Shown piece by piece: positions 47,951-63,020 of a DNA stretch of 64,000 bases. A program made the translations under genes and the position numbers. The stretch comes from Pseudomonadota bacterium (GTDB lineage Bacteria; Pseudomonadota; Alphaproteobacteria; Rhizobiales; Aestuariivirgaceae), in the NCBI GenBank assembly GCA_020161855.1, contig JAIUNJ010000002.1:1-64000 (forward strand), written 5' to 3'. The stretch's first letter is position 1. Every line of letters begins with the position of its first letter. The notes beneath the pieces are model-generated. The model made no database searches, was not told the origin of the DNA, and was given only the letters and a program-made list of their open reading frames with translations.

Positions 47951-47961
47951 CGCATTCCTGA

Positions 47962-48822
47962 TCAAAGTGTCGAAGCGTTGGAGGCGATCACCCGGCCGGC
48001 GCAGACCTGCCCCCGGGCCGCCGCATCCACCAGCGAGTCGCCCTGCAGCAGGCCAAAGACGAGCCCGGCCACGGCCGCATCACCCGCACCAGTCACGTCG
48101 ACAATCCTTTCGGGAGGTTGAGCCGCGACGTGTTCCACTTCCTTGCCATCGGAGACAAAGGCGCCTTCCGGACCAGCATGGAGGACGGCATTCCGCAAGC
48201 CTTTGCGATGCAAAAAGGAGATAGCCTCGTAGATATCCCGCGTGCCCGAAAGATGCTCCATCTGGTCAAAATTCGGTGAGGCCAGAAGCACTTGCTGACG
48301 CGCCAGCGCCTTTAGCAGCTTTTCCGACTTCGGCACCGAGACCGGCTCAATGATAAGCTTCGGCCCCACCATCTCGGCAATGGTTACCAGCGTGTCGGTG
48401 CGCAGGTTGCAGTCAGCGACGACGTAGTGGGCACCATGAAGCCGGGCCTCATTGCTCCGTACCATTTCCGGTGTGATCATCTCGACAGCCCGCATATCGT
48501 TAAGCGCCGTAATCAGTTCACCATCATGATCGAGGAGCGCGACGTAAGTCCCCGTCGAGATTGGCGCGGTGACAACCCCAGACATGTCAACACCTGCATC
48601 CCGCGTCATGTCAAGAATAGCGGCTCCATGAGCCCCTTGCCCGACCACCGATATCAGATCGACCTTTGCCCCCAGCCGAGCAAGGTTGTGGGCAATGTTG
48701 CGCCCCACTCCGCCGGGCGACGTTACCACAACACCCGGGTTCGACGTTCCCAGCCGGTTGGCCTCGATTGACTTCGCCTTGATGTCGATGTTGGCGCCAC
48801 CAACGACCACCACGTCGCTCAT
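47962..48822 (-). CDS. psuK: PfkB family sugar kinase, probable pseudouridine kinase
   Basis: A 286-residue ribokinase-family kinase. The N-terminal GGANIDIKAKS, the GGVGRNIAHNLARLG motif and the C-terminal anion hole/catalytic DVTGAGDAAVAGLVFG are in place. With psuG next to it, the substrate is most likely pseudouridine. It starts 2 bases after the mttB-like stop, so it is made from the same message. Confidence 0.9.
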   Translation of the reverse strand: MSDVVVVGGANIDIKAKSIEANRLGTSNPGVVVTSPGGVGRNIAHNLARLGAKVDLISVVGQGAHGAAILDMTRDAGVDMSGVVTAPISTGTYVALLDHDGELITALNDMRAVEMITPEMVRSNEARLHGAHYVVADCNLRTDTLVTIAEMVGPKLIIEPVSVPKSEKLLKALARQQVLLASPNFDQMEHLSGTRDIYEAISFLHRKGLRNAVLHAGPEGAFVSDGKEVEHVAAQPPERIVDVTGAGDAAVAGLVFGLLQGDSLVDAAARGQVCAGRVIASNASTL

Positions 48823-48824
48823 GC

Positions 48825-50375
48825 TCAGAAGTCCGTCTTGACGCCGCCTTCCTTGATGCGGCGGTCAACAAAGGCGTCAAGCTCAGCACGGATCGTCGCG
48901 TCCATCGGAGGTTCCTCATAGAGTTCGAGAACCTGCTTGTAGACCTGATTTGCCTTTTTGTATGCATCGGGGCTGCCAGCGGCGACCCATTGTTGATAGT
49001 TGCGCCAGTCCGATATGATCGGCTCGTAGAAGGCGGTCGAATAGCGCGCCAGCGTGTGCTGGGCGCCGAAAAAATGGCCGCCCGGCCCAACCTCACGAAT
49101 GGCGTCGAGCCCCAAGGCTTCTTCACTGGTATCAATGGGTTGCAGGAATGCCTTGATCATTTGAATGAGATCGCAGTCGAGCACGAATTTCTCGAAGCTT
49201 GCAACCAGCCCGCCTTCCATCCAACCGGCGCTGTGCATGATGTAGTTGCCGCCTCCCATGGTGACACCCCACAACGAGAAGACACTTTCATAGGCCGCCT
49301 GTGCGTCGACGACATTGGCCGCGTTGGTGTTGGAGGTGCGGTATGGCAGGCCGTAGCGTCGGGCCATCTGGCCGCCCAGCAGAGTGCTTTTCATATACTC
49401 GGGCGTACCAAAGGCCGGCGCGCCCGACTTCATGTCAACATTCGAGGTAAAGCCGCCATAGATCACCGGCGCGCCCTTGCGCACCAACTGGCAGAAGGCA
49501 AGCCCGGCCAGCGCCTCGGCGTTCTGCTCGACGACGGCACCCGCGATCGTTATGGGAGCCATTGCTCCGGCCAGCGTAAACGGCGTCACACATACAATCT
49601 GGTTGCGTGACGAGAGCTCCATCATCCCCATCAGCATGTTGCCATCAAGCTTCAGCGGCGAATTGGTGTTGACGATCGTCATCAGTGATGGCCGGTGGTT
49701 GAACTCCTCCTCGCTCACGCCATGCGAGATACGTGCGATCTCTATCGCATCGAGAACGTTCTGCCGCCCGAGTGAATAGCATACCAGGGGCTTGTCGAGC
49801 ATCGTCGCCATGTCGCGAACGGCCACAAGATGGCGAATGGAAGGATGGACGTCGATTGGCTCGACACAGTAGCCGCCGCAGGCGTCGAGGCAATTAAACC
49901 ACTGTGACAGTTTGAGGAACTTCCGGAAGTCGGCAAGCGTGCCGGGCCTGCGGCCCCCTTCCATGTCATGGCAGTTCGGCGGGCTGCCCACCGACACAAA
50001 GGCCATGTGGCCACCGCCGATGGGTACGTGCTTCTGGGCATTTCGGGAGTGAAAGGTGAAGTTCGAGGGCGCATGAGCTACCAGCTCTTCGATCATTGCG
50101 GGGTCGAAGCGGACCCGCTCGCCCTCAACTTTGGCGCCGGCCTTCTTCAGCAGATCCCGCGCCTCCGGCAGCAGGAACTCCATGCCAATCTCACTGAGAA
50201 CCTTCAGCGAGGCCTGATGAATGGCTTCCACCTGATCATCAGAAACAATCTTGGTCGGTTCGAAAGGCCGCTTTGCCACGCCGCGCGGAAGCTGGGGCAC
50301 GGTCGTGCCGGCGGCGGCACGCCGCGGACTGTCACGGCGGCTGCGGCGGGTGGTTTCGGCGTTTGTCTCGGTCAT
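48825..50375 (-). CDS. MttB-superfamily corrinoid methyltransferase, non-pyrrolysine (copy 1)
   Basis: A 516-residue MttB/trimethylamine methyltransferase family protein. The frame has no internal TAG, so it lacks pyrrolysine; such relatives (for example MtgB) demethylate quaternary amines and load a corrinoid protein. Recognisable parts are VSDDQVEAIHQASLKVLSEIG, GRRPGTLADFRKF, TPFTLAGAMAPITIAGA and GGNYIMHSAGWMEGGLVAS. ATG 50375 overlaps the stop of the LysR gene (ATGA). The cognate corrinoid protein is probably the one at 56119. Co-transcription with psuK-psuG is unusual and hints at a special substrate. Confidence 0.9.
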   Translation of the reverse strand: MTETNAETTRRSRRDSPRRAAAGTTVPQLPRGVAKRPFEPTKIVSDDQVEAIHQASLKVLSEIGMEFLLPEARDLLKKAGAKVEGERVRFDPAMIEELVAHAPSNFTFHSRNAQKHVPIGGGHMAFVSVGSPPNCHDMEGGRRPGTLADFRKFLKLSQWFNCLDACGGYCVEPIDVHPSIRHLVAVRDMATMLDKPLVCYSLGRQNVLDAIEIARISHGVSEEEFNHRPSLMTIVNTNSPLKLDGNMLMGMMELSSRNQIVCVTPFTLAGAMAPITIAGAVVEQNAEALAGLAFCQLVRKGAPVIYGGFTSNVDMKSGAPAFGTPEYMKSTLLGGQMARRYGLPYRTSNTNAANVVDAQAAYESVFSLWGVTMGGGNYIMHSAGWMEGGLVASFEKFVLDCDLIQMIKAFLQPIDTSEEALGLDAIREVGPGGHFFGAQHTLARYSTAFYEPIISDWRNYQQWVAAGSPDAYKKANQVYKQVLELYEEPPMDATIRAELDAFVDRRIKEGGVKTDF

Positions 50376-51304
50376 GCTGCCTTGCCTGTTTCTCGGTAAA
50401 CTTCCAGCGCAGGGTCTGCGGCCACCTGCTTGGCGAGCCATTCCTCAAAGCGCTTCACTTTCGGCTTGTTCCGGTGCTCAGTGTGGCACGCAAAATACCA
50501 ATTATGACGGTGCTGAACACGCAGCGGGAACGGCTGGACAAGCCGCCCCAGCTTGATCTCTTCGGCGGCAAATGGCCCAATGGTCATGGCAACGCCCCGG
50601 CCTTCAATCGCGGCCTCTTGCGCCAGGATGTAGCTGTCGACCGTCAACCGGTTGTTCGGCTTGACGCCCTTCACACTGGCCGCATCGAGCCAGAGCTGCC
50701 AGTCTTCTTCAGCTGTATAAACGTCAATGAGCTTGTGCTTCTTCAGGTCGTCGGGCTTCTTGATGGCATTGTCGCCCTTGAGCAGCGCAGGTGCACAGAC
50801 AGGCGCCAGGTAAGAGCGGAACAGCGGCCGGTAGTGATGCCCAGGGGCCTTGTTGCGCGCCAGAATGATACCGACGTCAACATTGCGCTCGTCGAAATCC
50901 CAATCGAAATACGACGTGGACAGGCGGACTTTCATGTCGGGGAAGCGCCGTTCGAAATCATGCAGGCGCGGGATCAGCCATTTCAGCGCCACCGTCACAT
51001 AGACCTGCACCGTGAGTTCATTGTCGGCAACGGAAGGCCTGATGGCCCGCGTCTGTGCCTCGATCTGGTCGAAGGCATCGCGAATGGCCGGATAATAGGC
51101 CTGCCCGCCCTGGGTCAGTTCGGCCCGCCGCGCATCCCGGCGGAACAGCTGCAACCCGAGACGATCCTCAAGAAGTTTAACCTGATGGCTTACGGCGGAA
51201 CGGGTAATTCCCAGTTCGTTGGCCGCCATGCGGAACGAACCGAGCCGGGCGGCGGCCTCGAAGGCCGTCAGCGCGCGCAGCGGCGGCAGATCACGTCTGG
51301 GCAA
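50372..51304 (-). CDS. LysR-type regulator of the mttB-psuKG operon
   Basis: A 310-residue LTTR of the GcvA-like group. Helix-turn-helix is in the first 60 residues (LRALTAFEAAARLGSFRMAANELGITRSAVSHQV), followed by a ligand-binding domain. Its gene overlaps the mttB start, so regulator and enzymes are made together, and it faces the second mttB gene. It likely controls both directions from the 183-base divergent region. Confidence 0.93.
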   Translation of the reverse strand: MPRRDLPPLRALTAFEAAARLGSFRMAANELGITRSAVSHQVKLLEDRLGLQLFRRDARRAELTQGGQAYYPAIRDAFDQIEAQTRAIRPSVADNELTVQVYVTVALKWLIPRLHDFERRFPDMKVRLSTSYFDWDFDERNVDVGIILARNKAPGHHYRPLFRSYLAPVCAPALLKGDNAIKKPDDLKKHKLIDVYTAEEDWQLWLDAASVKGVKPNNRLTVDSYILAQEAAIEGRGVAMTIGPFAAEEIKLGRLVQPFPLRVQHRHNWYFACHTEHRNKPKVKRFEEWLAKQVAADPALEVYRETGKAA

Positions 51305-51320
51305 GATGGCTCACCATGGG

Positions 51321-51339
51321 TATTGACGCTCTCTCAATA
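51321..51339. promoter_or_regulatory. LysR-type operator between the two mttB operons
   Basis: TATTGA-CGCTCTC-TCAATA is an inverted repeat with 6-base arms, a LysR-box-like shape (T-N11-A inside). The region also has TCAC-N8-GTGA (51383-51398) and two copies of TCACCAT (51311-51317, 51406-51412). One or more may be regulator sites. Confidence 0.45.
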
Positions 51340-51487
51340 GCAGTCTTGTTTTCAGTATGTTAGAGGCCGCGGAGGGCCATGGTCACAATTTAGCGTGAAA
51401 TCTGCTCACCATTCAACGGGCAAAAAACAGCCTTTGCCTTCGCCGCGTTTCGGCGCATCTATGCGCTGACTGGCTAGGGAGTCCGCC

Positions 51488-53068
51488 ATGAGTGTTGCCG
51501 AAGATCTGTCAAAGCGCCGCGGGGGACGCGAAGCACGGAAGGCGCTGCGCGCCCGCGCAGTGCCGATGTCGGAGGCCGCCGTCCGTCCCGGGATGACCGG
51601 AGGTCAATACAAGCCGCTGAAAGACGCTGACCTGCCGAAGATTCATGACGCGGCCATGAAGCTCCTGGAGACCGTGGGCCTCGGCAATGCCATTCCAAGC
51701 TGCATTGAAGCGATGACTGCTCACGGCTGCTGGGTGAATGCAAGGGGCAGGCTTTGTATTCCGCGCAGCCTCGTCGAAGATACCGTCGCCAAGGCGCGCC
51801 GCCACTTCATCCTGCATGCACGCGACCCGCAGCACGATATGGAGCCTTCGGGCAATCGCGTGTACTTCGGCACTGCAGGCGCCGCGGTTCATATCGTCGA
51901 GCCGGAGAAGCAGGAGTATCGGGAATCGCTTCTGGTCGATCTCTATGATGCCGGACGCATCGTTGACGTCTGCGACCATATTCATTTCTATCAGCGGCCC
52001 GTGACGGCCCGCGACATGATCACCGGACACGACCTCGACATCAACACCATGTATGCCTGCGTTGCCGCCACGCGGAAACACGTTGGCACCTCGATGGTGG
52101 ATCCCGCCCATGTGGCCGAGTGCCTGGAAATTCTTCATCTCGTCGCCGGAGGCGAAGACAAGTGGCGCGAGCGTCCGTTCGTGTCGCAGTCCAACTGCTT
52201 TGTCGTGCCGCCGCTGAAGTTCGCCGAGGATGCTTGCCGTTGCCTTGAAGTGGCAGCGCGCGGTGGCATGCCTGTGCTTCTGCTTTCGGCCGCGCAGGCC
52301 GGCGCCACGTCGCCTGCCGCTCTTGCCGGCACCGTCGTTCAGGCTGTTGCCGAATGCCTGGCGGGGCTCGTCTATATCAACTGCGTGGTGCCCGGCGCTG
52401 TGGCGATCTGGGGCCCATGGCCCTTCGTCTCCGACCTGAGGACCGGCGCCATGTCTGGCGGCTCGGGAGAGCAAGCGCTTATCACCTCGGCCTGCGCCCA
52501 GATGGGGCACTTCTACGACCTCACCGTCGGCTCGGCGGCGGGAATGTGTGATTCCAAGCTCCCCGACATGCAGGCAGGCTATGAGAAGGGTGTGACGGCC
52601 GGCATTTCCGCGATGACCGGCGTCAATATGCTGTATGAAAGTGCAGGGATGCACGCGTCATTGCTGGGGTTCTGTCTTGAGAGCCTGCTCATCGACAATG
52701 ACATGCTGGGCTCGATCAACCGTAACGTCCGCGGCATCGAAGTGACCGAGGATTCACTGTCGATCGAGGTGATCTCTCAGGTTTGCCTCGAGGGGCCCGG
52801 GCACTATCTCGGAAGCGACCAAACGCTCAACCTCATGCAGAAAGACTATGTCTATCCTTCCCTCGGTAACCGCATGAGCCCCAAGGAATGGCTCGAGGCC
52901 GGCAAACCCGACATCGTAAAGCGTGCTGCTGCGCGCAAGCGCGAGATTCTCTCGACCCATTATCCGGACTACATCCCTCGCCATATCGACGAGCTGATCC
53001 GCGCCAAGCATGACATTCGTCTGCCGCGCGAAGCCATGGAAGCCGGGGATCCGCGCTGGGCCCGGTAA
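51488..53068 (+). CDS. MttB-superfamily corrinoid methyltransferase, non-pyrrolysine (copy 2)
   Basis: A 526-residue MttB-family protein, clearly diverged from copy 1, again without an in-frame amber codon. Family parts: LPKIHDAAMKLLETVGLG, TAGAAVHIVEP, ATSPAALAGTVVQAVAECLAG and MTGVNMLYESAGM. AGGGAG precedes ATG 51488. It opens a plus-strand operon: mttB2, Fe-S protein (0-base gap), homocysteine methyltransferase, Gfa-like protein. That order suggests it hands methyl groups via a corrinoid to homocysteine. Substrate not visible. Confidence 0.9.
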   Translation: MSVAEDLSKRRGGREARKALRARAVPMSEAAVRPGMTGGQYKPLKDADLPKIHDAAMKLLETVGLGNAIPSCIEAMTAHGCWVNARGRLCIPRSLVEDTVAKARRHFILHARDPQHDMEPSGNRVYFGTAGAAVHIVEPEKQEYRESLLVDLYDAGRIVDVCDHIHFYQRPVTARDMITGHDLDINTMYACVAATRKHVGTSMVDPAHVAECLEILHLVAGGEDKWRERPFVSQSNCFVVPPLKFAEDACRCLEVAARGGMPVLLLSAAQAGATSPAALAGTVVQAVAECLAGLVYINCVVPGAVAIWGPWPFVSDLRTGAMSGGSGEQALITSACAQMGHFYDLTVGSAAGMCDSKLPDMQAGYEKGVTAGISAMTGVNMLYESAGMHASLLGFCLESLLIDNDMLGSINRNVRGIEVTEDSLSIEVISQVCLEGPGHYLGSDQTLNLMQKDYVYPSLGNRMSPKEWLEAGKPDIVKRAAARKREILSTHYPDYIPRHIDELIRAKHDIRLPREAMEAGDPRWAR

Positions 53069-53731
53069 GTGGAACACCCGGTTCTGATCCGTATCCGGGC
53101 TGAGGCCTTCACACCGCTGGGCTGGTTTGAGACTGCAGGTGGCGATTTGCTGCCGGAGAATACCCGCTTCGTCATTCTCATCGGAAATGCCGGTCCGGCC
53201 ATGTTCAGGCGCTTTGCCCGGGAGCGCGATCCCCTGCGCCATGCGATGGACGACTGGACTCGCGATGTTGTGATCCCGATGGCGGAGGACCTCGGCGCGC
53301 AAGCCGTCTTCGCTTTTGACAGCCCGCCGCGCCCCTTTCTGACCTGGGCCAGAAAGGCGCAAGCTGGTCACGTCTCGCCCCTGGGCCTCAACATCCATCC
53401 TATCTACGGATTGTGGCACGCTTATCGGGCCGCCCTGCTCTTTCCTGTGGTGTTCGACTTACCGCGCACAAGTGCAGGTGCCCACCCTTGCGAGAGCTGC
53501 GCCAGCAAGCCCTGCCTTTCATCCTGTCCCGTCGGTGCTTTCGACGGCCAGAGCTACAATCTGAAAGCTTGCGGCCAACACATCATGAGCGACGCTGGAC
53601 ATCAGTGTCTTTCCGGCGGATGCCTTGCCAGGCTGGCTTGTCCTGTGGGAAAATCATACGAATACACACCGCCGCAGAAGCAGTTTCACATGCGTGCCTT
53701 CCTGGCGGCACGGCAGAAGGAGTTACCTTGA
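53069..53731 (+). CDS. Cysteine-rich ferredoxin-like protein, candidate corrinoid redox partner
   Basis: A 220-residue protein starting with GTG directly after the mttB2 stop. The C-terminal third holds eight Cys in a two-cluster pattern: CESCASKPCLSSCP, then KAC, QCLSGGC and LAC, fitting two [4Fe-4S] clusters. The preceding part (NIHPIYGLWHAYRAALLFP) loosely recalls the cobalamin-binding N-terminal half of QueG-type epoxyqueuosine reductases. In this cluster a role in reducing cob(II)alamin for reactivation is plausible, but this is inference. Confidence 0.7.
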   Translation: MEHPVLIRIRAEAFTPLGWFETAGGDLLPENTRFVILIGNAGPAMFRRFARERDPLRHAMDDWTRDVVIPMAEDLGAQAVFAFDSPPRPFLTWARKAQAGHVSPLGLNIHPIYGLWHAYRAALLFPVVFDLPRTSAGAHPCESCASKPCLSSCPVGAFDGQSYNLKACGQHIMSDAGHQCLSGGCLARLACPVGKSYEYTPPQKQFHMRAFLAARQKELP

Positions 53732-54642
53732 GCTACGACCATGTCCGAAAGAAACTCGTGAGTGGCGAGATCATCGTGCTCGACGGCGGCACAGGCACCG
53801 ATATTCAGCGTCGCGGTGTCGCGATGAGCGGTGAAACCTGGTGCGCTGAAGCGAATCTCACGCATGCGGATGTGGTTCGGTCGGTTCATGATGACTACAT
53901 TGCCGCCGGTGCCGATGTCATCACCGCCAACACATTCGCCTCGAGCGCGCTCTTATTCAACCATCTGGGGCGGGACGCTGATGTTCCGCGCGTCGACTCA
54001 GCTGCCTTGCGTGCTGCAAAAGCTGCGGCATACGGCAAGCCTGTGGCGGTTGCCGGATCCATGTCAACAATGCGGCCGATGACCAACGGTTCCGATCGCA
54101 ATCAGCTTACGGTCACCTGGCCGGAGGAGGATGCGCGCAGATTGTTCCGGGCAAAGGCAGCGGCCCTGAGAGATGCCGGCGCTGACTTCATCATGATGGA
54201 GCTTCTGAGGGACACTGACTACGCGATATGGGCGAGCGAGGCAGCGCTCGAAGTCGGGCTACCGGTTTGGATAGGCCTGTCATGTGAGCGCGGCGAAGAC
54301 GGCGCCCTGTATGGCTGGGGCAGGCCGGATTGCGCATTTGACAGGATTGCAAGCTCTCTGGCCGCTCTGCGGCCGGACGTCATGAGCATCATGCACACCT
54401 CGCCCAACGATACCGGCGAAGCGATCAACATCTTGAAGAAGTACTGGGGTGGTCCAATCGGTACATATCCGGAGAGCGGCTATTTCAAATCTCCTGACTG
54501 GGTCTTCGTAGATGTCATCACACCTGGCGATCTTGTGGACAAGACGAGAGAGTGGCAGCAACAGGGCGCGACTATATTTGGTGGCTGTTGTGGAATCGGG
54601 CCAAGTCATATCGAGGCACTGAGCGAGGCATTTAAGCTATGA
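53728..54642 (+). CDS. Homocysteine S-methyltransferase family protein (copy 1)
   Basis: A 304-residue Pfam S-methyl_trans protein, transferring a methyl group to homocysteine. The TTG start at 53728 overlaps the preceding stop and has AGAAGGAG upstream. Zinc-type Cys are in IGLSCERGEDG and the GGCCGIG motif near the C-terminus, with N-terminal LDGGTGTDIQRRG. It is translationally coupled to the Fe-S and Gfa-like genes. Donor (betaine, S-methylmethionine or corrinoid-bound methyl) cannot be told from sequence. Confidence 0.88.
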   Translation: MSYDHVRKKLVSGEIIVLDGGTGTDIQRRGVAMSGETWCAEANLTHADVVRSVHDDYIAAGADVITANTFASSALLFNHLGRDADVPRVDSAALRAAKAAAYGKPVAVAGSMSTMRPMTNGSDRNQLTVTWPEEDARRLFRAKAAALRDAGADFIMMELLRDTDYAIWASEAALEVGLPVWIGLSCERGEDGALYGWGRPDCAFDRIASSLAALRPDVMSIMHTSPNDTGEAINILKKYWGGPIGTYPESGYFKSPDWVFVDVITPGDLVDKTREWQQQGATIFGGCCGIGPSHIEALSEAFKL

Positions 54643-55022
54643 AAACTGGTTCATGCCTCTGTGGCAGCGTAAAGTTCGAACTGCATGGACCGCTTGATCC
54701 GGTTGTCGCCTGCCACTGTACGCAATGCCGCAAGCAGACCGGGAACTACTGGTCATCCACGCGCTCGGCAGACTCCGACCTGAAGTTCATTTCGAATGAC
54801 ACGCTGACCTGGTACCGGACCAGCGAAGCGGCGCAGCGCGGCTTTTGCCAGGCCTGCGGCTCAACACTGTTCTGGAAGGCGGATGGCCGGAGCACGACCT
54901 CAATCTGTGCCGGATCAATTGACGGCAAGACTGGCCTTGCTCTCGATGGCCACATCTATGTTGCCGATGCGGGCGACTACTACGAGATCGCCGGTGGCAG
55001 CTACCGGCTTCCAAAGGACTAG
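54639..55022 (+). CDS. Gfa family protein (glutathione-dependent formaldehyde-activating enzyme-like)
   Basis: A 127-residue zinc beta-barrel protein with the Cys pattern CLCGS, CHCTQCRKQTG and GFCQACGSTLFW, matching the GFA/CENP-V fold. Its start overlaps the homocysteine methyltransferase stop by 4 bases. Gfa relatives have a debated link to formaldehyde and glutathione; the demethylation context fits a formaldehyde or one-carbon role, but it is not proof. Confidence 0.9.
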   Translation: MKTGSCLCGSVKFELHGPLDPVVACHCTQCRKQTGNYWSSTRSADSDLKFISNDTLTWYRTSEAAQRGFCQACGSTLFWKADGRSTTSICAGSIDGKTGLALDGHIYVADAGDYYEIAGGSYRLPKD

Positions 55023-55023
55023 A

Positions 55024-55677
55024 TCAGGCTCTGGCGGCAAGTCCGCTTGCCAGTTCCCCATAACCAGTGAAGCGATATTCGTAGCCGAGACCCAGACGCT
55101 TGGCAGCTGCCTCCGCCTTTCTGGCAAGCCCTTCATCTTCCGTCTGCGCGAGATAGATGATCTTCGTATAGTTGCCGAAATACATGGGCAGCAGCTCCGG
55201 GTGGCGGTCAAGCCCCAGCCCCTCCCACACGAGCTTGTCAAAGTGCCGGGCCAGATAGTCCGTCAGGAAGAAGGCTGAAAAGTCCTCTGCCTCGCGCTGT
55301 GCGAAAAGTGGATTGCCGCTGAAAAAGGCATAGCAGTGCGGTCCGTCAATGCGCTCCACGCGCTCTTCCTCAAGCATCTTGTCCAGCAGGCCACCGGTGC
55401 CGCAATCGCCATAGAGCACGTAGATCGACTTGTAGTGTTCGCGGCCCTCATGGATCTTTTCGCGCACGGCTGGTACGATGTGCTGAGGCGTGTTGTGCCA
55501 CTTCGCAGGCAGGCACTGGATATCGAAAGCCCGCCACCTGTTGTGTTCGATGAGATCGACGATCTCCCGGGCCAGCGCTCCGCATGCAATCAGAAGCACC
55601 TCGCCTTCCCCCTTGCCGAAAGCAAAGGTTTCCGAGGGAGCGAGTTCCAGATGATCCTGCGGGGTTGTGCTCGTCAC
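55024..55677 (-). CDS. DUF1638 protein
   Basis: A 217-residue DUF1638 protein (LLIACGALAREIVDLI, YVLYGDCGTGGLLDKML, HCYAFFSGNPLF). The family is often beside corrinoid methyltransferase genes, as here. The conserved Cys, Asp and Gly residues hint at a catalytic or metal site. Biochemical function is not established; it may help corrinoid handling. Convergent with the Gfa-like gene, one base apart. Confidence 0.88.
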   Translation of the reverse strand: MTSTTPQDHLELAPSETFAFGKGEGEVLLIACGALAREIVDLIEHNRWRAFDIQCLPAKWHNTPQHIVPAVREKIHEGREHYKSIYVLYGDCGTGGLLDKMLEEERVERIDGPHCYAFFSGNPLFAQREAEDFSAFFLTDYLARHFDKLVWEGLGLDRHPELLPMYFGNYTKIIYLAQTEDEGLARKAEAAAKRLGLGYEYRFTGYGELASGLAARA

Positions 55678-55754
55678 GTCTCAGCCTGCTCAACGTTCAT
55701 TGACCGTTTACCATAGTGCAGCCTTGGTTCGCTTTCCGGCCCGTTAGTTTCGAA

Positions 55755-55784
55755 TTGACAGAACCTGCTTCAGGTCCCGTTAAA
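55755..55784 (+). promoter_or_regulatory. Promoter before the Flp pilin gene
   Basis: A perfect -35 TTGACA (55755-55760) and a -10-like GTTAAA (55779-55784) are 18 bases apart, about 85 bases before the pilin start. Confidence 0.45.
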
Positions 55785-55870
55785 TTTCCCCGCCTTACAT
55801 TACGCTCACGTTCATGGCGCATAGGGTTGTGTCGGCAAGAACTGTGAACAACGACTTCTGGAGTGGCAAG

Positions 55871-56032
55871 ATGATCAAGTTCTTCAAGGATGAATCCGGC
55901 GCAACTGCGATCGAATATGGCCTCATAGCCACAACGATGGGCATGGCACTGATCGCAGTGATGCCGACCCTCGTGTCAGCGATCAGCGACCGCTTTACGA
56001 TCCTTGCCTCGGACCTTGCCGGCGGCTCCTGA
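55871..56032 (+). CDS. Flp/Fap-type pilin, isolated
   Basis: A 53-residue type IVb pilin: MIKFFKDESGATAIEYGLIATTMG with the prepilin cleavage site after Gly and the E at +5, then a hydrophobic helix. ATG 55871 gives the normal short leader. No tad/cpa assembly genes are in the window, so it would need machinery encoded elsewhere. A terminator follows. Confidence 0.92.
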   Translation: MIKFFKDESGATAIEYGLIATTMGMALIAVMPTLVSAISDRFTILASDLAGGS

Positions 56033-56056
56033 TCCCCGGACGCCCTCCAGTACAAC

Positions 56057-56080
56057 GGCGCCCCTCTCTGGGCGCCTTTC
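56057..56080 (+). terminator. Terminator after the Flp pilin gene
   Basis: GGCGCCC and GGGCGCC form a perfect 7-bp stem with a 6-base loop, followed by TTTC. The T-run is short but the position between convergent genes fits. Confidence 0.65.
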
Positions 56081-56118
56081 TGCCTGTGGTTGGCCGAACC
56101 TGATCAGCCGCGCTTTCC

Positions 56119-56817
56119 CTAGCCAGCCAACTGGTTGTGCTTGCGCGCCATGAAGGACTTGGCCGTCTCTACGGCGACCGCAGCATCACGGCAGTAAGCG
56201 TCAGCGCCAATCGCCTTGGCGAAATCTTCGTTCAGCGGCGCACCGCCGACCAACACCGTATAGTCGTCGCGAATGCCCTTTTCCTTCATCGTGTCGATCA
56301 CGACCTTCATATAAGGCATCGTCGTCGTCAGCAGCGCAGACATGCCCAGGATGTCGGGCTTGTGCTGCTCCATGGCATCAAGATACTTCTCGACAGGGTT
56401 GTTGATGCCCAGGTCGATCACCTCGAAGCCCGCACCTTCCATCATCATGCCGACAAGGTTCTTGCCGATGTCGTGAATGTCGCCCTTGACGGTTCCGATC
56501 ACCATCTTGCCGAGGCGCGGGGCGCCGGTGGCGATGAGCAGTGGCCTCAGGATGAACATCCCGGCCTTCATCGAATTGGCGGCCAACAGCACTTCCGGCA
56601 CGAAGAGAATGCCGTCACGGAAATCGATACCGACGATGCGCATGCCTTCGACCAGCGCTTCGGTCAAAACCTTGTAGGGCGCCCAGCCACGGCCCAGCAG
56701 AATATGAACACCCGCCTCGACCTCTTCCTTGAGGCCATCATACAGATCGTCGTGAATCTGCTGCGTCAGTTCCTCATCATTCAGGGAATTCAGGTCAAGA
56801 TCGCCAGCATCGCTCAT
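56119..56817 (-). CDS. Corrinoid (B12-binding) methyl carrier protein, MttC/MtbC type
   Basis: A 232-residue two-domain methyl carrier: an N-terminal helical cap (residues about 10-100, EALVEGMRIVGIDFRDGILFVPEVL) and a Rossmann B12 domain with the cobalt-ligand motif DIHDIGKNLV. It ends with the loop VLVGGAPLNEDFAKAIGAD. It is the only corrinoid protein in the window and is therefore the likely methyl acceptor for both MttB-like enzymes, though it is transcribed alone. Confidence 0.95.
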   Translation of the reverse strand: MSDAGDLDLNSLNDEELTQQIHDDLYDGLKEEVEAGVHILLGRGWAPYKVLTEALVEGMRIVGIDFRDGILFVPEVLLAANSMKAGMFILRPLLIATGAPRLGKMVIGTVKGDIHDIGKNLVGMMMEGAGFEVIDLGINNPVEKYLDAMEQHKPDILGMSALLTTTMPYMKVVIDTMKEKGIRDDYTVLVGGAPLNEDFAKAIGADAYCRDAAVAVETAKSFMARKHNQLAG

Positions 56818-56962
56818 GGATCACTCCGGGGGGTCGCACTCGAACCACAAATATAGCTTCCGCAGCGCCAAAAACCGCGCCACGCCGCGACTTCCCCATG
56901 CCGGAAAGCGACGGGCAAGACAAGGACTTATCAGGAAGGCCGAAGGCGGATAAAGAGCTGCC

Positions 56963-58201
56963 ATGACTCACACCCTCGACATTGCCGCCATCCGCGCCCG
57001 CTTCCCCGCCCTTGCCCTCCGGGACAACGACACAGCCCGGATTTACTTCGATAATCCGGCAGGAACCCAGGTTCCGACCGAAGTGGTGGAGCGGACCACG
57101 GAGGCCCTGCTACGCAAGAATGCCAATCTCGGTGGCTACTTCCGCACGACAGTCGATGCAGACGCGCTGGTGAACGATGCTCACCAGGCTGTTGCCGATC
57201 TTTACGGTGCGGCCTCCGCGGCAGAGATCATCTTCGGCCAGAACATGACGACGCTGACGCTGCATATGTCTCGCTGCCTTGGACGCTCCTTCAACGCGGG
57301 GGATGAAATTGTCCTGTCGCGCATGGACCATGACGCCAATGTCGCGCCCTGGCTGCTGCTTGCCGAGGACAAAGGCCTCACTGTTCGCTGGATGGATTTC
57401 GATCCCGGAACTTTCGAGTTTCCGGACGATGCGCTGGAAAAGGTGCTGTCGCCGCGCACAAAGCTCGTGGCGCTTGGCTATGCCTCGAACTGCACCGGCA
57501 CAATCAATGACGTAAAGCGTTTCTGCGCCCAAGCGCGGGCGGCGGGGGCACTTTCCTATGTCGATGCCGTGCAGTTCGCCCCTCACGGACTTGTCGACGT
57601 GCAGGACATCGGCTGCGATTTTCTGGTGTCTTCGGCCTACAAGTGGTTCGGGCCGCATATGGGAATCCTGTGGGGCCGCGAAGCGCTTCTCAAGCAGACA
57701 TTCGGCTACAAGGTCCGTCCGGCTGGCGAAGATCTGCCCCACAAGTTTGAAACTGGCACATTGTCTCACGAAGGCATGGCTGGGTGCCTCGGGGCTGTCG
57801 AATACCTGGGCTCGCTCGGCACCGGCGGCGATGCCCGGACACGCATCAAGAGTGCCTGGAAGACATTGGAAGCTTACGAGCAGGCGCTGACACTGCACCT
57901 GATCAATGCCATCAAGCCGGTCAAAGGCCTCAAGATTCAGGGCATCACCTCGGCCAATGCCATGCACCGGCGCGTGCCGACGGTCTCTTTCACCATTGAC
58001 GGCAAGACGCCGGAGAGCCTGGCCCGGCACTTTGCGGCCGAGAACATCTTTGTCTGGTCTGGTCACAATTACGCTGTCGAACCGGTGGGCCGCCTCGGCC
58101 TGCTCGACAAGGGCGGCGTGCTTCGCGTCGGCCTCGCCCACTACAACACCACAGAGGAGGTCGACCAGTTCGTGGCCTCCCTGTACCGCGCCATCCAGTG
58201 A
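56963..58201 (+). CDS. Cysteine desulfurase-like class V aminotransferase, VC1184 subfamily
   Basis: A 412-residue PLP enzyme of fold type I. The PLP lysine lies in SSAYKWFGPHMG, with an Asp in VDAVQFAPHG that pairs with the ring nitrogen. The opening IRARFPALALRD and YFDNPAGTQVP match the VC1184-type subfamily. The mobile Cys loop of SufS-type desulfurases is not evident, so real desulfurase activity is doubtful. It is followed after 7 bases by a sugar dehydrogenase-like gene. Confidence 0.88.
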   Translation: MTHTLDIAAIRARFPALALRDNDTARIYFDNPAGTQVPTEVVERTTEALLRKNANLGGYFRTTVDADALVNDAHQAVADLYGAASAAEIIFGQNMTTLTLHMSRCLGRSFNAGDEIVLSRMDHDANVAPWLLLAEDKGLTVRWMDFDPGTFEFPDDALEKVLSPRTKLVALGYASNCTGTINDVKRFCAQARAAGALSYVDAVQFAPHGLVDVQDIGCDFLVSSAYKWFGPHMGILWGREALLKQTFGYKVRPAGEDLPHKFETGTLSHEGMAGCLGAVEYLGSLGTGGDARTRIKSAWKTLEAYEQALTLHLINAIKPVKGLKIQGITSANAMHRRVPTVSFTIDGKTPESLARHFAAENIFVWSGHNYAVEPVGRLGLLDKGGVLRVGLAHYNTTEEVDQFVASLYRAIQ

Positions 58202-58208
58202 GGATACC

Positions 58209-59147
58209 ATGGTCTACCGCATTGCCGTCGCCGGTCTCGGAAAGATCGCCAACGACCAGCACCTCCCCTGCATCGCCAAGAACAAGAACTTCAAGCTGGT
58301 GGCTGGTGTAAGCCGCCACGCCAGGATCGACAGCGTCCCCTGCTTCGAGTCATTGGCCGGGCTTCGCGCCAGCAAGATCGCAGTGGATGCGGTAGCGCTG
58401 TGCACACCACCTGCGGTGAGGCTGGCATTGGCCCGCGAGGTTCTCGATGCCGGCTGGCATCTGCTCATCGAGAAGCCGCCGACACCTACAGTCGGCGAAC
58501 TGATCAGCATGGAGGCCTATGCCCGCAAGAAGAAGCGCGTGCTCTATGCCACCTGGCATTCGCGCTATAACGCTTCCGTTGATGAGGCGAAAAAACGCCT
58601 CAAGGGCAAGCGGGTGTCGCACCTCCGTGTGACCTGGAAGGAAGATGTCAATCGCTGGCATCCCGGCCAGGAGTGGATCTGGCAGCCCGGTGGCTTCGGT
58701 GTCTTCGATCCGGGCATCAATGCGCTCTCGATTGTCACCAAGATCCTGCCTGAACCCATCTTCGTCGAAAGCGCTACGATCGAAGTGCCGTCGAATTCTG
58801 CAACGCCGATCGGCGCCGACATCCGGTTCAAGCGCGGCGATGGCGAACAAGCGGATCTATCTGCTGTCTTCGATTGGCGGCAGCGCGGCGAGCAGATCTG
58901 GGAAATGGAGATCGCGACGCGCGATGGATTGAAGCTCGAGTTGAAGAAGGGTGGTTCCGTTCTCCTCGTCAACGGCAAGACCGTTCGCGAAGCGCCGCTC
59001 GAAGAATATGAAATGATCTACGCGAAGTTTGCGCGGCTGTTGAAAGCGAAGAAGTCCGATGTGGACCCCTCGCCGCTGCAACTCGTGTCCGACTGCTTCA
59101 TGCTGGGCAAGCCGGTGGTCGTAGACGCCTTCAGGTGGTCGGTCTGA
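58209..59147 (+). CDS. Gfo/Idh/MocA oxidoreductase, galactose/arabinose 1-dehydrogenase-like
   Basis: A 312-residue NAD(P) dehydrogenase. Rossmann motif AGLGKIANDQHLP at the N-terminus, EKPP near residue 90, and the blocks LYATWHSRYN, RVTWKEDVNRWHPGQEW and GGFGVFDPGINALSI match D-galactose/L-arabinose 1-dehydrogenases. The substrate may be a sugar or a sugar-like compound. It is probably co-transcribed with the aminotransferase-like gene. Relation to the methyl-transfer genes is unclear. Confidence 0.88.
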   Translation: MVYRIAVAGLGKIANDQHLPCIAKNKNFKLVAGVSRHARIDSVPCFESLAGLRASKIAVDAVALCTPPAVRLALAREVLDAGWHLLIEKPPTPTVGELISMEAYARKKKRVLYATWHSRYNASVDEAKKRLKGKRVSHLRVTWKEDVNRWHPGQEWIWQPGGFGVFDPGINALSIVTKILPEPIFVESATIEVPSNSATPIGADIRFKRGDGEQADLSAVFDWRQRGEQIWEMEIATRDGLKLELKKGGSVLLVNGKTVREAPLEEYEMIYAKFARLLKAKKSDVDPSPLQLVSDCFMLGKPVVVDAFRWSV

Positions 59148-59162
59148 TTGACTTTGAAGGCG

Positions 59163-59438
59163 CTAGCGCCGCAAGCGATAGCGCCATTCATTGGCCTCAT
59201 GCCTGAGTCTGTGCCGCTGCAACAGGTCGTCTGGCAGGTTCAGATCGCGCAAATGGGCCTCCGACAGACCCTGGAGATCCAGCCGCGCACCTGTCGACCG
59301 GCGGATCCCTATATTCCCGAGTAAATTCAAAAAGATATTGAGTGTTCCGGTCATCTCGCGACGCGCCTCCGCATTGGATGTCTCGCATTCTGCTGCCTCG
59401 ACCAGGAAAACTCCAACGCGAAACCTGGCATAAGCCAT
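59163..59438 (-). CDS. DUF1127 domain protein
   Basis: A 91-residue small protein with a C-terminal DUF1127 motif (LSEAHLRDLNLPDDL), an Arg-rich segment typical of alphaproteobacterial small RNA-linked or phosphate-response proteins. ATG 59438. It lies between two plus-strand genes and starts 22 bases from the LysR gene, so the promoters overlap. Confidence 0.7.
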   Translation of the reverse strand: MAYARFRVGVFLVEAAECETSNAEARREMTGTLNIFLNLLGNIGIRRSTGARLDLQGLSEAHLRDLNLPDDLLQRHRLRHEANEWRYRLRR

Positions 59439-59460
59439 CAATCTGCTTTATGTCTTGGCA

Positions 59461-60348
59461 ATGAGTGCTTCCCCACCACTGCAGGCTGTTCGCGTCTTCG
59501 AGGCCGTCGCCCGTCACGGCAATTTCACGCGGGCAGCGGCCGAACTGAACATGACCCAGTCGGCGGTCAGCTATCAGATCCGCCTGATCGAACGGCACGC
59601 AGGCACCATCCTGTTTATCCGCCAGGCGCGGGGTGTTGCCCTGACGGCCGAAGGCCAGCGCATCTTTCCGATCATCCGGCAAAGCCTTCTCGACATCGGC
59701 AACGCCTTCCGCAACCTGAAGGACGATCGCGAAAATCTTCTGGTGATCACCACCATGCCAACCATCGCCAACGCATGGCTCGCGCCTCGTCTTGGGTCTC
59801 TGCAAATGGAGCATCCAAACCTCGCCGTGAGGCTCCATATCGGCAACGACGTCATGGACCTGTCAGCAGGCGACATCGACGTCGCCATCCGCTCCGGCAA
59901 AGGCAATTGGCCAGGCGTCACCAGCCACCATCTTCTCGATCAGAACTTCATCGCTGTTGCGAGCCCAGCCTATTTGGCGCGCGAAGGAACGCCAGAGACA
60001 GCCGCTGCGCTGCTCGATCACGTCATCATCGCGCCCACCGATGACTGGTGGGCCATCTGGCTTGCCAAGGCAGGCTATCATAGGCCCATTGCCTTCAAGA
60101 GACCGGGTGTCGACGTCGAAACACAGCAGATGAGTGTTCGTCTTGCATTGTCCGGGCAAGGCATCACGCTGGCCACACCAGCCTTCATCCGGCAGGAGCT
60201 GTCCCAGGGCCATTTGCTGCAAGTCCTCGATGTCGAGGCCACATCCGGGCTGAGCTACCATGTTGCCTATGCCAAGGCGCGTGCGGACAGCCGCAAGATC
60301 AGGCTCTTTCGCGACTGGGCCCTCGGTCAGGCCCGCGGCAACAGCTAG
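59461..60348 (+). CDS. LysR-type transcriptional regulator (GcvA-like)
   Basis: A 295-residue LTTR with an N-terminal winged helix (LQAVRVFEAVARHGNFTRAAAELNMTQSAVSYQI) and a C-terminal sensing domain. ATG 59461; a TTG at 59455 is weaker. Target unknown, possibly the neighbouring DUF1127 gene or the aminotransferase-dehydrogenase pair. Stop shares CTAG with the AAA gene. Confidence 0.92.
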   Translation: MSASPPLQAVRVFEAVARHGNFTRAAAELNMTQSAVSYQIRLIERHAGTILFIRQARGVALTAEGQRIFPIIRQSLLDIGNAFRNLKDDRENLLVITTMPTIANAWLAPRLGSLQMEHPNLAVRLHIGNDVMDLSAGDIDVAIRSGKGNWPGVTSHHLLDQNFIAVASPAYLAREGTPETAAALLDHVIIAPTDDWWAIWLAKAGYHRPIAFKRPGVDVETQQMSVRLALSGQGITLATPAFIRQELSQGHLLQVLDVEATSGLSYHVAYAKARADSRKIRLFRDWALGQARGNS

Positions 60349-61118
60349 GTTTCAGCTTTGTCGTCGCCCAGAAGCCGCCGCAGCATAGCTTGCGGGCGCT
60401 CCAGAAACGTCCGGGTGATCTGAACGTGCTCGGTTTCGTCAAAACTCACCTGTTGAATGCCGTTCTCGCTGATCTGGTAGATGCAGGCATCCGGATAGGC
60501 CATGAGGATCGGCGAATGGGTGGCGATGATGAACTGGGAATTGTCATCGGCCAGTTCCTTCATCCGCACGAGCATCGCAAGCTGCCGCATCGGTGAGAGC
60601 GCCGCCTCGGGTTCGTCGAGGATGTAGAGGCCGTTGCCACGCAAGCGGTTTTCGAGCAGCGCCATGAAAGACTCGCCATGCGATTGCTCATGCAGCGAGA
60701 CGCCGCCATAGGACGAGATCACGGGCGGAGAAAATCCCGGTTCCCGGTCCAGTGCATCGATGTTGCTGGCCACGTTGAAGTAGCTTTCGGCCCGCAGGAA
60801 AAAGCCGTCACGGGCGCGCTTCACGCCCTTCACCAGCCGCAGTGCCTTGTGCAGGTCGGAGTGTGCCTTGACCGTTGCGAAATTGAAGTTCTTCGAGCCA
60901 CCCTCGGCGTTGAAGCCCCAGGCTACCGCCAGGGCCTCGATCAAGGTGGATTTGCCCGAGCCATTCTCGCCGACGAGGAACGTCACCTTTGGATGGAAGG
61001 TGATTTCCGCGAAGTCGCGCAATACAGGCAGCGAAAATGGATAGACCTTGTGATCAGGAATGCGCTCAGCGAGCAGCTGGGCCTTCAGAAGATAGTGCCT
61101 GGCCTCAAAGGCCTTCAC
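60345..61118 (-). CDS. AAA ATPase (SMC/RecF-like, AAA_21 type)
   Basis: A 257-residue ABC/SMC-type ATPase: Walker A VGENGSGKST near residue 55, signature-like SHGESFMALLENRLRG and Walker B LYILDEPEAALSP, then IATHSPILMAYP. Start GTG 61118 lies 4 bases after the homocysteine methyltransferase stop; a longer reading into that gene is not family-like. Role unknown; similar ATPases act in gene-regulatory or defence contexts, but no partner nuclease is present. Confidence 0.8.
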   Translation of the reverse strand: MKAFEARHYLLKAQLLAERIPDHKVYPFSLPVLRDFAEITFHPKVTFLVGENGSGKSTLIEALAVAWGFNAEGGSKNFNFATVKAHSDLHKALRLVKGVKRARDGFFLRAESYFNVASNIDALDREPGFSPPVISSYGGVSLHEQSHGESFMALLENRLRGNGLYILDEPEAALSPMRQLAMLVRMKELADDNSQFIIATHSPILMAYPDACIYQISENGIQQVSFDETEHVQITRTFLERPQAMLRRLLGDDKAET

Positions 61119-61122
61119 ACCA

Positions 61123-62136
61123 TCAGCCCCTGCGGCGCTCGCGGCGGGCAGCCCCTTCCGCAGCCTTGTCGAGCCCCTTGGCAAGCTCTGACACCGGCCC
61201 AAGCTTGGTTTCCACCAGTTCCAGTGTCGGCATCGGCCCTTTGGTGTGGCCTTCGAGGGCCCGGCGCATGGAGGCAAGGTGCTCCGGGCTGGTGCCACAG
61301 CACCCGCCGATGATCCGCGCCCCGCTGTCGAAGGCGATGCGGGCATAGTCCGCCATCAGCTCCGGCGTCCCCGAGTAGTGGATGCTGCCATCGACATATT
61401 GCGGAATGCCGCAGTTGCCCTTGGCCACCACAGCCGCATCCGGCCGCGCCTTGGCGATCCCCATCACGGTGGCCACGAGCTCGGACGCGCCGACACCGCA
61501 ATTGGCCCCGATGGCCACAGGCTGCACCGGCAATGACGCCGCGATGTTGCCAAAGGCTGCAGGCGTGATGCCCATCATCGTCCGTCCATTGGTGTCGAAA
61601 CTCATCGTGGTGACGATCGGAAGCCCTGCCTGCGCGGCACCTTCAACGGCCGCACGCAGCTCCTCCTCGGAGGACATGGTTTCGATCCAGAGCACATCCA
61701 CGCCGCCATCCTTCAGCGCCATGGCCTGCTCGGCGAAAGCAGCGACACCTTCCTCATGCGGCATTGTCCCGACAGGCATGAAAATCTCGCCGGTCGGCCC
61801 GATGGAGCCGCCAACATAAACATCACGTCCGGCCGCGTCGGCCTCTGCGCGCGCATTGCCCGCCGCGGCTACGTTGATCTCATGCACCTGATCCTGGGCG
61901 TTGTGCAGCTTCAGGCGGTGCCTATTGCCTCCGAAAGTGTTGGTCAGAACGATGTCGGCACCCGCCTCGATGAAGCGCCGGTGCAGCGAACGCACCCGGT
62001 CCGGATGCTCAAAGTTCCACATTTCCGGGGCATCCCCGGAGACCAGCCCCATCTGGAAATAGTTGGTACCGGTGGCACCGTCAGCGAGCAGCCATGGGCG
62101 GGTGGCGAGTGCTTCAGTAAACGACTGGCGCGGCAT
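61123..62136 (-). CDS. Homocysteine S-methyltransferase, betaine-homocysteine type (copy 2)
   Basis: A 337-residue S-methyltransferase resembling bacterial betaine-homocysteine methyltransferases. N-terminal LLADGATGTNYFQMGL, zinc Cys in GANCGVGASE and GGCCGTSPEH, plus TNTFGGNRHRLKLH and GPTGEIFMPVG. ATG 62136 was chosen. A striking palindrome lies just upstream. It would use a methyl donor to make methionine. It is the second such enzyme in the window. Confidence 0.9.
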   Translation of the reverse strand: MPRQSFTEALATRPWLLADGATGTNYFQMGLVSGDAPEMWNFEHPDRVRSLHRRFIEAGADIVLTNTFGGNRHRLKLHNAQDQVHEINVAAAGNARAEADAAGRDVYVGGSIGPTGEIFMPVGTMPHEEGVAAFAEQAMALKDGGVDVLWIETMSSEEELRAAVEGAAQAGLPIVTTMSFDTNGRTMMGITPAAFGNIAASLPVQPVAIGANCGVGASELVATVMGIAKARPDAAVVAKGNCGIPQYVDGSIHYSGTPELMADYARIAFDSGARIIGGCCGTSPEHLASMRRALEGHTKGPMPTLELVETKLGPVSELAKGLDKAAEGAARRERRRG

Positions 62137-62152
62137 ATTCGTTGTCCTCGAA

Positions 62153-62176
62153 CTATATAAAGAGTTCTTTATATAG
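62153..62176. promoter_or_regulatory. Long AT-rich palindrome before the homocysteine methyltransferase
   Basis: CTATATAAAGA-GT-TCTTTATATAG has perfect 11-base arms with a 2-base centre. It spans the last bases of the MBL gene (stop 62169-62171) and lies 17 bases before ATG 62136. The TATAAAGA/TCTTTATA core is the kind of site used by ArsR-type regulators of the methionine cycle (SahR/MetR-like); this match is from memory. AT-rich arms argue against a classic terminator. Confidence 0.6.
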
Positions 62177-63020
62177 ATTCCGACGGCTGCTGCCAAGACG
62201 CAAATGCGTGCGGCGCCGTCAGCAGGTACATGCGTTCATTGACCTCGATCCGCTCCGGCCGATCACCGCTTTTCTTCAGATTTTCCAAAGTGGTTAGCAG
62301 GTCTTTCAAATCCTGTTTGTAAAGGCGGGGTGCATCATGCCGGCCATCGTCGTCGGGCTTTCCATGTGCCCCAAAGATCAGCGTATCGTCGCCCACCAGT
62401 GCCAGCAGCTCCTCAACCACCCGCAGATAGGCGGCCAGATCCGCCCCACGCACCTGTCCATACAGCGCACCGAGATAGATGTAGTCCGCCGCCAGCAGAA
62501 GGTTTGCCAGCGGGTCCCATAGCGCAACATGATCGGGCGCATGCCCCGGCGTGTGCAATATCTCTAACACTCGGCCACCGAGGTCAATCTTGTGCCCGAT
62601 AGGCCACCACTGCTGCACACGCATTGGCTTCCAGGTCATGCCCTCGAGATGGCCGAGAAAGCGCTCGCCGGGCTCGAACAGGATGCCGTTCCGTTCGTGC
62701 GCACGCAGCAGCGGCAGGTCGGCCACGGCGACATCGTCGAAGCGATGCAGGTTCCCCACATGGTCGAAATGCATGTGTGAGCAGAAAGCCGTCACCGGCA
62801 GTGGCGTAAGCGCCCGCACGACTTCCGTGATGTCGCGGACACCGGGGCCTGTGTCGAACATCAATGCACGCTCGGTTCCCGCCACCAGATAGTTCCAGTT
62901 CAACTGGTGAAAGCGCGGCTCGCCAATCGCCGTCACGCCCGGTGCAACCTCGCGGATGGCGAACCAGTCATCAAACCAGCGAACACCGGGGGCGAGCATG
63001 TCAGGCATTTGCCAGTCCAT
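62169..63020 (-). CDS. Metallo-beta-lactamase fold hydrolase
   Basis: A 283-residue MBL-superfamily enzyme. Zinc motif CSHMHFDHVG (HxHxDH, near residues 81-86), then HTPGHAPDHVALWD and a late GAHGKPD with His. Substrate is unknown; thioesters, lactones and glyoxalase-type substrates occur in the family. It overlaps the DmsC gene by 20 bases and follows it on the same strand. Confidence 0.9.
   Translation of the reverse strand: MDWQMPDMLAPGVRWFDDWFAIREVAPGVTAIGEPRFHQLNWNYLVAGTERALMFDTGPGVRDITEVVRALTPLPVTAFCSHMHFDHVGNLHRFDDVAVADLPLLRAHERNGILFEPGERFLGHLEGMTWKPMRVQQWWPIGHKIDLGGRVLEILHTPGHAPDHVALWDPLANLLLAADYIYLGALYGQVRGADLAAYLRVVEELLALVGDDTLIFGAHGKPDDDGRHDAPRLYKQDLKDLLTTLENLKKSGDRPERIEVNERMYLLTAPHAFASWQQPSESI

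Follow-up and report, generated by a model that had tools for sequence, protein, structure and literature searches.

An eight-cysteine protein with a predicted cobalamin-enzyme fold in an alphaproteobacterial corrinoid methyl-transfer island

What might an eight-cysteine protein do in an operon with a corrinoid-dependent methyltransferase? The question is raised by positions 1-64000 of contig C13 (hereafter the window, 64,000 nucleotides) in an alphaproteobacterial genome of 3.36 Mb, in 19 contigs and 91.94% complete, where an earlier note, made from the sequence alone, had described a cobalamin-dependent methyl-transfer island with two MttB proteins. The protein in question, FeS, has 220 residues, and its gene follows directly on one of the two mttB genes. 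The observation was confirmed, and its interpretation was partly supported and turned out to be largely in print; the part that may be new is the predicted cobalamin-enzyme fold of FeS. The upkeep of Co(I) in corrinoid methyltransferases of aerobic cells is poorly explained, with RamA implicated, and a recurring partner with such a predicted fold would offer a concrete, testable component; the island as such is of less interest, its core having been in print since 2025. Our best explanation of the whole, to which we give a probability of about 0.55, is an island of the MtgBCDE kind that includes FeS as a class III-type cobalamin/[4Fe-4S] helper, which would reduce or load the corrinoid.

Predicted fold of the eight-cysteine protein

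The earlier note had listed an eight-cysteine Fe-S protein, and the open frame and the cysteines are indeed there; its predicted fold had been overlooked. FeS gave no Pfam match at an E value of 0.001 and, when each protein was searched against profiles as the note had proposed, it was the only named part of the island left without family support. The eight Cys residues lie in the C-terminal part, are invariant across 34 and 73 sequences, and are predicted to form two [4Fe-4S] sites. The nitroreductase-like domain is also conserved throughout, with G39, P89, W93, G114 and R120 among its invariant residues. An AF2 model with a pLDDT of 95.3 matched QueG, MMACHC and RdhA (Foldseek, VIA-align 2), and in this high-confidence prediction FeS resembles in fold the cobalamin-binding core and two-cluster ferredoxin of epoxyqueuosine reductase (QueG) and of the reductive dehalogenases (RdhA), as well as MMACHC. 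Profile hints were obtained for both relationships: 17 of the 34 members matched PF16690 (MMACHC) at E values up to 0.1, and 27 of the 73 sequences matched TIGR00276 (QueG) at E values up to 0.01. The FeS of the window itself scored 13.5 bits, against a gathering score of 27 for PF16690, and is not placed in the MMACHC family.

With respect to class III of the cobalamin/[4Fe-4S] proteins, the C-terminal cysteine pattern of a two-cluster ferredoxin is present, at the level of the pattern with the clusters predicted, and so is the fold of the nitroreductase-type cobalamin domain, according to a predicted model rather than a solved structure. The C-terminal helical repeat domain of QueG is not there, FeS ending 29 residues past its last invariant Cys. 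In the parts of the literature drawn on here, which for PMC4646009, PMC12478193 and PMC5764234 are excerpts of each paper, further class III families are held to be possible but to have no sequence motif, so that their discovery may await genes with C-terminal ferredoxin modules (PMC4646009); the FeS family is a candidate of the kind foreseen there. We tentatively suggest, at odds somewhat short of even, that FeS represents a further class III family beside QueG and the reductive dehalogenases, one in which an MMACHC-like core stands free and has a redox chain of its own, serves specifically to reduce or load the corrinoid carriers of aerobic methyltransferases, and goes unrecognised under the database names 'ferredoxin' and 'hypothetical protein'. 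In listings of the openly accessible literature no paper on the FeS family was named, and the literature found does not describe the coupled operon to which FeS belongs (see below). The terms 'ferredoxin', 'Fe-S', 'iron-sulfur' and 'MMACHC' have zero occurrences in the main text of PMC12478193, as distinct from its supplement and figures.

Gene layout and recurrence of FeS

FeS is encoded in a plus-strand operon, MttB2-FeS-HMT2-GFA, divergent from a minus-strand string, LysR1-MttB1-PfkB-PsuG, in which gene ends overlap or nearly touch; DUF1638, MtgC and, farther away, MtgE are all on the minus strand:

47033..47965, minus: PsuG, pseudouridine-5'-phosphate glycosidase family (Indigoidine_A), PF04227 at 413.9 bits; last gene of the string
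47962..48822, minus: PfkB-family kinase, PF00294 at 157.6 bits; 4 bp overlap with PsuG
48825..50375, minus: MttB1, non-pyrrolysine MttB superfamily, PF06253 at 658 bits
50372..51304, minus: LysR1, LysR-family regulator, PF00126 and PF03466; position conserved in relatives
51488..53068, plus: MttB2, divergent non-pyrrolysine MttB, PF06253 at 350 bits
53069..53731, plus: FeS, eight-cysteine protein of 220 residues; GTG start right after the MttB2 stop
53728..54642, plus: HMT2, divergent member of the homocysteine S-methyltransferase family, PF02574 at 159.6 bits; TTGA overlap with FeS
54639..55022, plus: small GFA-family protein, PF04828 at 71 bits; ATGA overlap with HMT2
55024..55677, minus: DUF1638 protein, PF07796 at 92.7 bits
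56119..56817, minus: MtgC, corrinoid carrier, PF02607 and PF02310; DIHDIG motif at residue 113
56963..58201, plus: cysteine desulfurase-like PLP protein, TIGR01976 at 496.7 bits (cut-off 352)
61123..62196, minus: MtgE, betaine--homocysteine S-methyltransferase, PRK07534 at 507.4 bits (cut-off 338)

MttB2 and FeS are separated by a gap of 0 bp, and both the FeS/HMT2 and the HMT2/GFA junctions are overlaps of 4 bp, so the four proteins are probably co-translated. The MttB1 frame is open to 50441, its likely start being the ATG at 50375, within an ATGA overlap with the LysR1 stop. The cysteine desulfurase-like gene stays a neighbour in many relatives. Between DUF1638 and MtgC, a plus-strand open reading frame (ORF) of 72 codons (55814-56032) resembles, by eye, a Flp/Fap pilin.

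The closest named relatives among the FeS matches listed are genomes, including metagenome-assembled ones, labelled Aestuariivirga, other Hyphomicrobiales or Alphaproteobacteria. We compared 80 named FeS loci, the best 80 of 531 confirmed, a selection that favours close relatives. In 24 of them FeS is preceded on the same strand by an MttB2 of 73-88% identity, at a distance of up to 200 bp in 21 cases and of 377-778 bp in the other three. HMT2 accompanies the pair in 23 of the 24, the exception being L096, whose contig stops short; it is present in L097 as well, where MttB2 is absent. GFA is found in 21, the contig ending in L093 and L096, and was not found in L100. This recurrence excludes a chance arrangement of MttB2 and FeS, and the wider order (LysR1, MttB1, DUF1638, MtgC and the cysteine desulfurase-like gene) is kept in part of the relatives' loci. 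Of 115 FeS loci taken together, 34 have an MttB gene upstream on the same strand, at most 1.2 kb from FeS; by best match, 25 of these are of the MttB2 kind, six of the Sinorhizobium meliloti kind, two of the MttB1 kind and one of a fourth kind. The gap is 200 bp or less in 27 of the 34 and about 0.6 kb for both MttB1-kind genes, so that the close pairing extends to three subfamilies. Moreover, S. meliloti (LZK74_26790) and Paracoccus aminovorans each have an FeS gene inside the mtg locus, beside genes for MttB, MtgC, DUF1638, a folate module, methylenetetrahydrofolate reductase and RamA, and there the FeS relatives are annotated 'ferredoxin' and 'hypothetical protein'. FeS genes in several different contexts also have a small GFA-family gene no more than 1.5 kb away (54639-55022 in the window, and L055, L056, L103, L148 and L156).

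Co-occurrence was scored in 289 alphaproteobacterial genomes drawn evenly across the class, of which 59 carry FeS, 62 MttB, 65 RamA, 53 DUF1638 and 154 MetH with PF02965. FeS and MttB occur together in 46 genomes (12.7 expected), FeS and RamA in 46 (13.3 expected), and FeS and DUF1638 in 41 (10.8 expected), whereas FeS and MetH PF02965 show no association (34 genomes, 31.4 expected). At the level of taxonomic families, 40 have FeS, 38 have MttB and 30 have both (9.7 expected), the total being taken as 157, the highest family label seen; this collapse lessens the effect of relatedness and does not remove it.

The methyl-transfer core and its candidate substrates

The methyl-transfer genes of the island belong to a system already described. 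In Ruegeria pomeroyi, proteomics and mutants have shown that MtgC and MtgD are required for methionine synthesis and glycine betaine demethylation, and the proposed model adds MtgE and the MtgB proteins of the MttB family, RamA and DUF1638 being predicted to recharge the cofactor (PMC12478193, 2025); as many as seven MttB genes in one genome and a co-located mtg set in S. meliloti are also noted (PMC12478193). In Phaeobacter inhibens, methionine synthase is split, and RamA and DUF1638 are genetically tied to B12 reactivation, with no specific proposal made for the role of DUF1638 in the excerpted text (PMC5764234, 2018). The genome studied here likewise has PF06253, corrinoid, pterin and homocysteine modules as separate proteins, together with a RamA-like reactivase and DUF1638. 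The single corrinoid carrier of the earlier note is borne out by both of its Pfam domains and its DIHDIG motif, and the best NCBIfam match is NF047996 (MtgC), at 206 bits and under the cut-off of 370. MtgE, one of the two homocysteine S-methyltransferase-family proteins correctly named there, the other being HMT2, passes the PRK07534 cut-off and has all three zinc cysteines (Cys233, Cys299 and Cys300). The homologs of RamA and MtgD are both on contig C14, unlinked from the island, where the pterin gene resembles a gene of the S. meliloti locus annotated as methyltetrahydrofolate cobalamin methyltransferase. The MetH reactivation domain PF02965 was not found in this genome (91.94% complete), an absence that is typical of MtgBCDE systems and is not required of them. 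By its gene content the island belongs to the published MtgBCDE type of split corrinoid methyltransferase, and its core is not new. The DUF1638 protein, also rightly recognised by the note, has a predicted fold of alternating strands and helices with no clear solved relative; C32, C55, C92, C115, H61 and H114 are invariant in 19 sequences, and these Cys and His residues could make a metal site.

The note had proposed that methyl groups pass through the carrier to homocysteine or folate. This is the best reading of the gene content and, because that content matches the published MtgBCDE system, it is the function to be expected; the novelty claimed for the whole island does not hold against PMC12478193 and PMC5764234.

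Six PF06253 genes were found in the genome, two of them in the island. As claimed, both of these frames are uninterrupted, with no in-frame UAG, and neither protein belongs to the pyrrolysine MttB enzymes; MttB2 has Met (ATG, 52544-52546) at the pyrrolysine position. A match to the Rfam family PYLIS_3 (RF02510; 52544-52643, 51.1 bits against a gathering score of 38) lies within this non-pyrrolysine gene. It was rejected as a pyrrolysine signal, since it begins at the very ATG that occupies the pyrrolysine position, and to judge from the sequence the RNA family appears to pick up mttB coding homology.

The best solved relatives of MttB1 are 4yyc (378 bits) and the glycine betaine methyltransferase 9yce/2qne (318 bits); MttB2 scores nearly equally with pyrrolysine MttB (203 bits) and MtgB (197 bits). 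Another MttB, on contig C1, is the counterpart of the one in the S. meliloti mtg locus (about 69% identical), so the two in the window probably act on different methyl donors. On named replicons, 189 records matched with MttB2 relatives of 40-58% identity, and six were viewed. In five of the six, an FAD oxidoreductase with a folate-binding GCV_T domain lies within a few kb and resembles dimethylglycine dehydrogenase (domains Pfam-checked in all five); in the sixth (Leisingera), an aromatic ring-hydroxylating dioxygenase and a mandelate-racemase-family gene adjoin the MttB2 relative. One viewed record (Mesorhizobium) has a glycine-betaine/proline ABC transporter. These oxidoreductases and the transporter point to betaines as candidate substrates, and the genome itself has a 55% identical copy of the dimethylglycine-dehydrogenase-like oxidoreductase elsewhere on contig C13. 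Around other MttB genes of the genome (L060, L061 and L062), a TRAP transporter, an amino-acid permease and ABC transporters were noticed by eye, and Pfam placed a DAO-type oxidoreductase in L061 and an FMN oxidoreductase in L062, which suggests separate methylated-amine pathways.

The other two members of the operon are less readily placed. In all 25 aligned rows HMT2 has Met-His where the first zinc Cys motif would stand (the His is one column off in the alignment), while the GGCC zinc pair is kept in all 24 untruncated rows; the full set of three zinc cysteines is therefore not present, and both the metal site and the acceptor are uncertain as a result. The Gfa-like protein of the earlier note is a GFA-family member (PF04828), and its role as a formaldehyde enzyme did not stand: as S-(hydroxymethyl)glutathione synthase it scores far under the cut-offs (TIGR02820, 19.7 bits against 234.55; NF003829, 20.1 against 249).

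Proposed mechanism, rival explanations and known systems

In the explanation that we favour, MttB1 and MttB2 would each move a methyl group from a methylated, probably quaternary, amine to the cob(I)alamin of a shared MtgC, from which it would pass to homocysteine via MtgE, yielding methionine, or to tetrahydrofolate via MtgD, encoded elsewhere in the genome. RamA, also encoded elsewhere, and DUF1638 would help to maintain the active cofactor. FeS would hold base-off cobalamin in its nitroreductase-like domain, next to the two predicted [4Fe-4S] clusters, and give electrons, or bring reduced cobalamin, to the corrinoid carrier in oxic conditions; HMT2 would be an alternative methyl-acceptor module.

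Several observations weigh against this explanation. MttB, RamA and DUF1638 are all absent from 11 of the 59 FeS genomes, and 16 of the 62 MttB genomes are without FeS, which is thus not obligatory; moreover, this genome already has RamA. The even draw across the class gave 59 FeS matches outside the window, and 33 of these loci were fetched: not one has MttB within 1.2 kb 5' of FeS, and only six of the 33 have any match to MttB, MtgC, DUF1638, RamA or MtgD within about 8 kb. Tight pairing is marked only among the similarity-ranked loci and in two plasmid records. Among the neighbours of 26 remote FeS genes there is no theme: in a Pfam scan of 101 of the 161 neighbour ORFs called (by a crude gene caller, with 25 of 126 families listed), the commonest family is found in five of 101 and PF06253 in two of 101, and a common neighbour was rejected for these genes, two of whose loci (L135 and L150) have an MttB gene farther away. 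The five P. inhibens genes from fitness data include no FeS-like protein, in the excerpted text (PMC5764234). Finally, a cobalamin ligand motif is not readable from the FeS sequence, a shared fold is no demonstration of function, and HMT2 is without the first zinc Cys. In view of the FeS-only and MttB-only genomes and of the themeless remote neighbours, we regard FeS as a frequent, non-obligatory partner of corrinoid methyl transfer that may have a second role.

The two-cluster, ferredoxin-like cysteine pattern would also suit an ordinary MtgBCDE island in which FeS is an electron-donating ferredoxin for RamA, its cobalamin-enzyme fold inherited and no cobalamin of its own. FeS co-occurs with RamA as strongly as with MttB, and RamA adjoins FeS in L053 and lies no more than about 6 kb away in L109 and L116; however, a plain ferredoxin would not require a whole nitroreductase-like domain, which is conserved, and we consider this role somewhat unlikely. 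A replacement of RamA by FeS was rejected, since the genome has RamA on contig C14. It is unlikely, too, that FeS is a cobalamin-processing chaperone like human MMACHC, acting in dealkylation, decyanation and MtgC loading rather than as reactivase of a running enzyme: the excerpted text gives MMACHC no ferredoxin domain (PMC4646009), and FeS fails to co-occur with MetH, another cobalamin user. That the nearest two-cluster folds are QueG and RdhA, and that some FeS genomes have none of the three methyl-transfer markers, would fit an enzyme with a small-molecule substrate of its own, merely linked genetically to methyl-transfer loci; the co-occurrence of FeS with these markers across genomes, and its recurrent pairing with MttB genes of several subfamilies, make this quite improbable.

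A methylated-nucleoside pathway encoded by the MttB1-PfkB-PsuG string, separate from the MttB2 operon, would account for the near-zero gaps within that string and for the presence of PsuG in 15 relatives' loci, in seven of which a further MttB lies beyond PsuG. No MttB-superfamily substrate is known to be a nucleoside, and among the 30 PsuG loci fetched, from the 30 top-ranking of the 58 matching genomes in the set of 289, the window is the only one with MttB within 1.5 kb; we therefore hold such a pathway to be highly improbable. On the same count the pseudouridine pathway was rejected as a general MttB partner, and its genes are not supported as part of the system, as the earlier note had it; the link is conserved only among close relatives.

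Among known systems, QueG and the reductive dehalogenases share the predicted fold, whereas FeS has 220 residues, has neither the QueG helical repeat nor a known substrate, and tracks corrinoid methyltransferases; human MMACHC (CblC) differs from FeS in being without an Fe-S domain, in the excerpted text (PMC4646009). HMT2 shares the PF02574 barrel and GGCC with the homocysteine modules of BHMT and MetH, its best solved relative being BHMT (E 6e-20), but has Met-His at the first zinc position. It also has Ala at the column that, counting by hand, we take to be that of BHMT Tyr77. With the MtgBCDE systems of R. pomeroyi, P. inhibens and S. meliloti, the island and its genome have in common the PF06253 donors, separate MtgC, MtgD and MtgE, RamA, DUF1638 and a MetH reactivation domain that is not found; the window differs in having two MttB paralogs other than the S. 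meliloti type, in leaving MtgD and RamA unlinked, and in adding the MttB2-FeS-HMT2-GFA operon.

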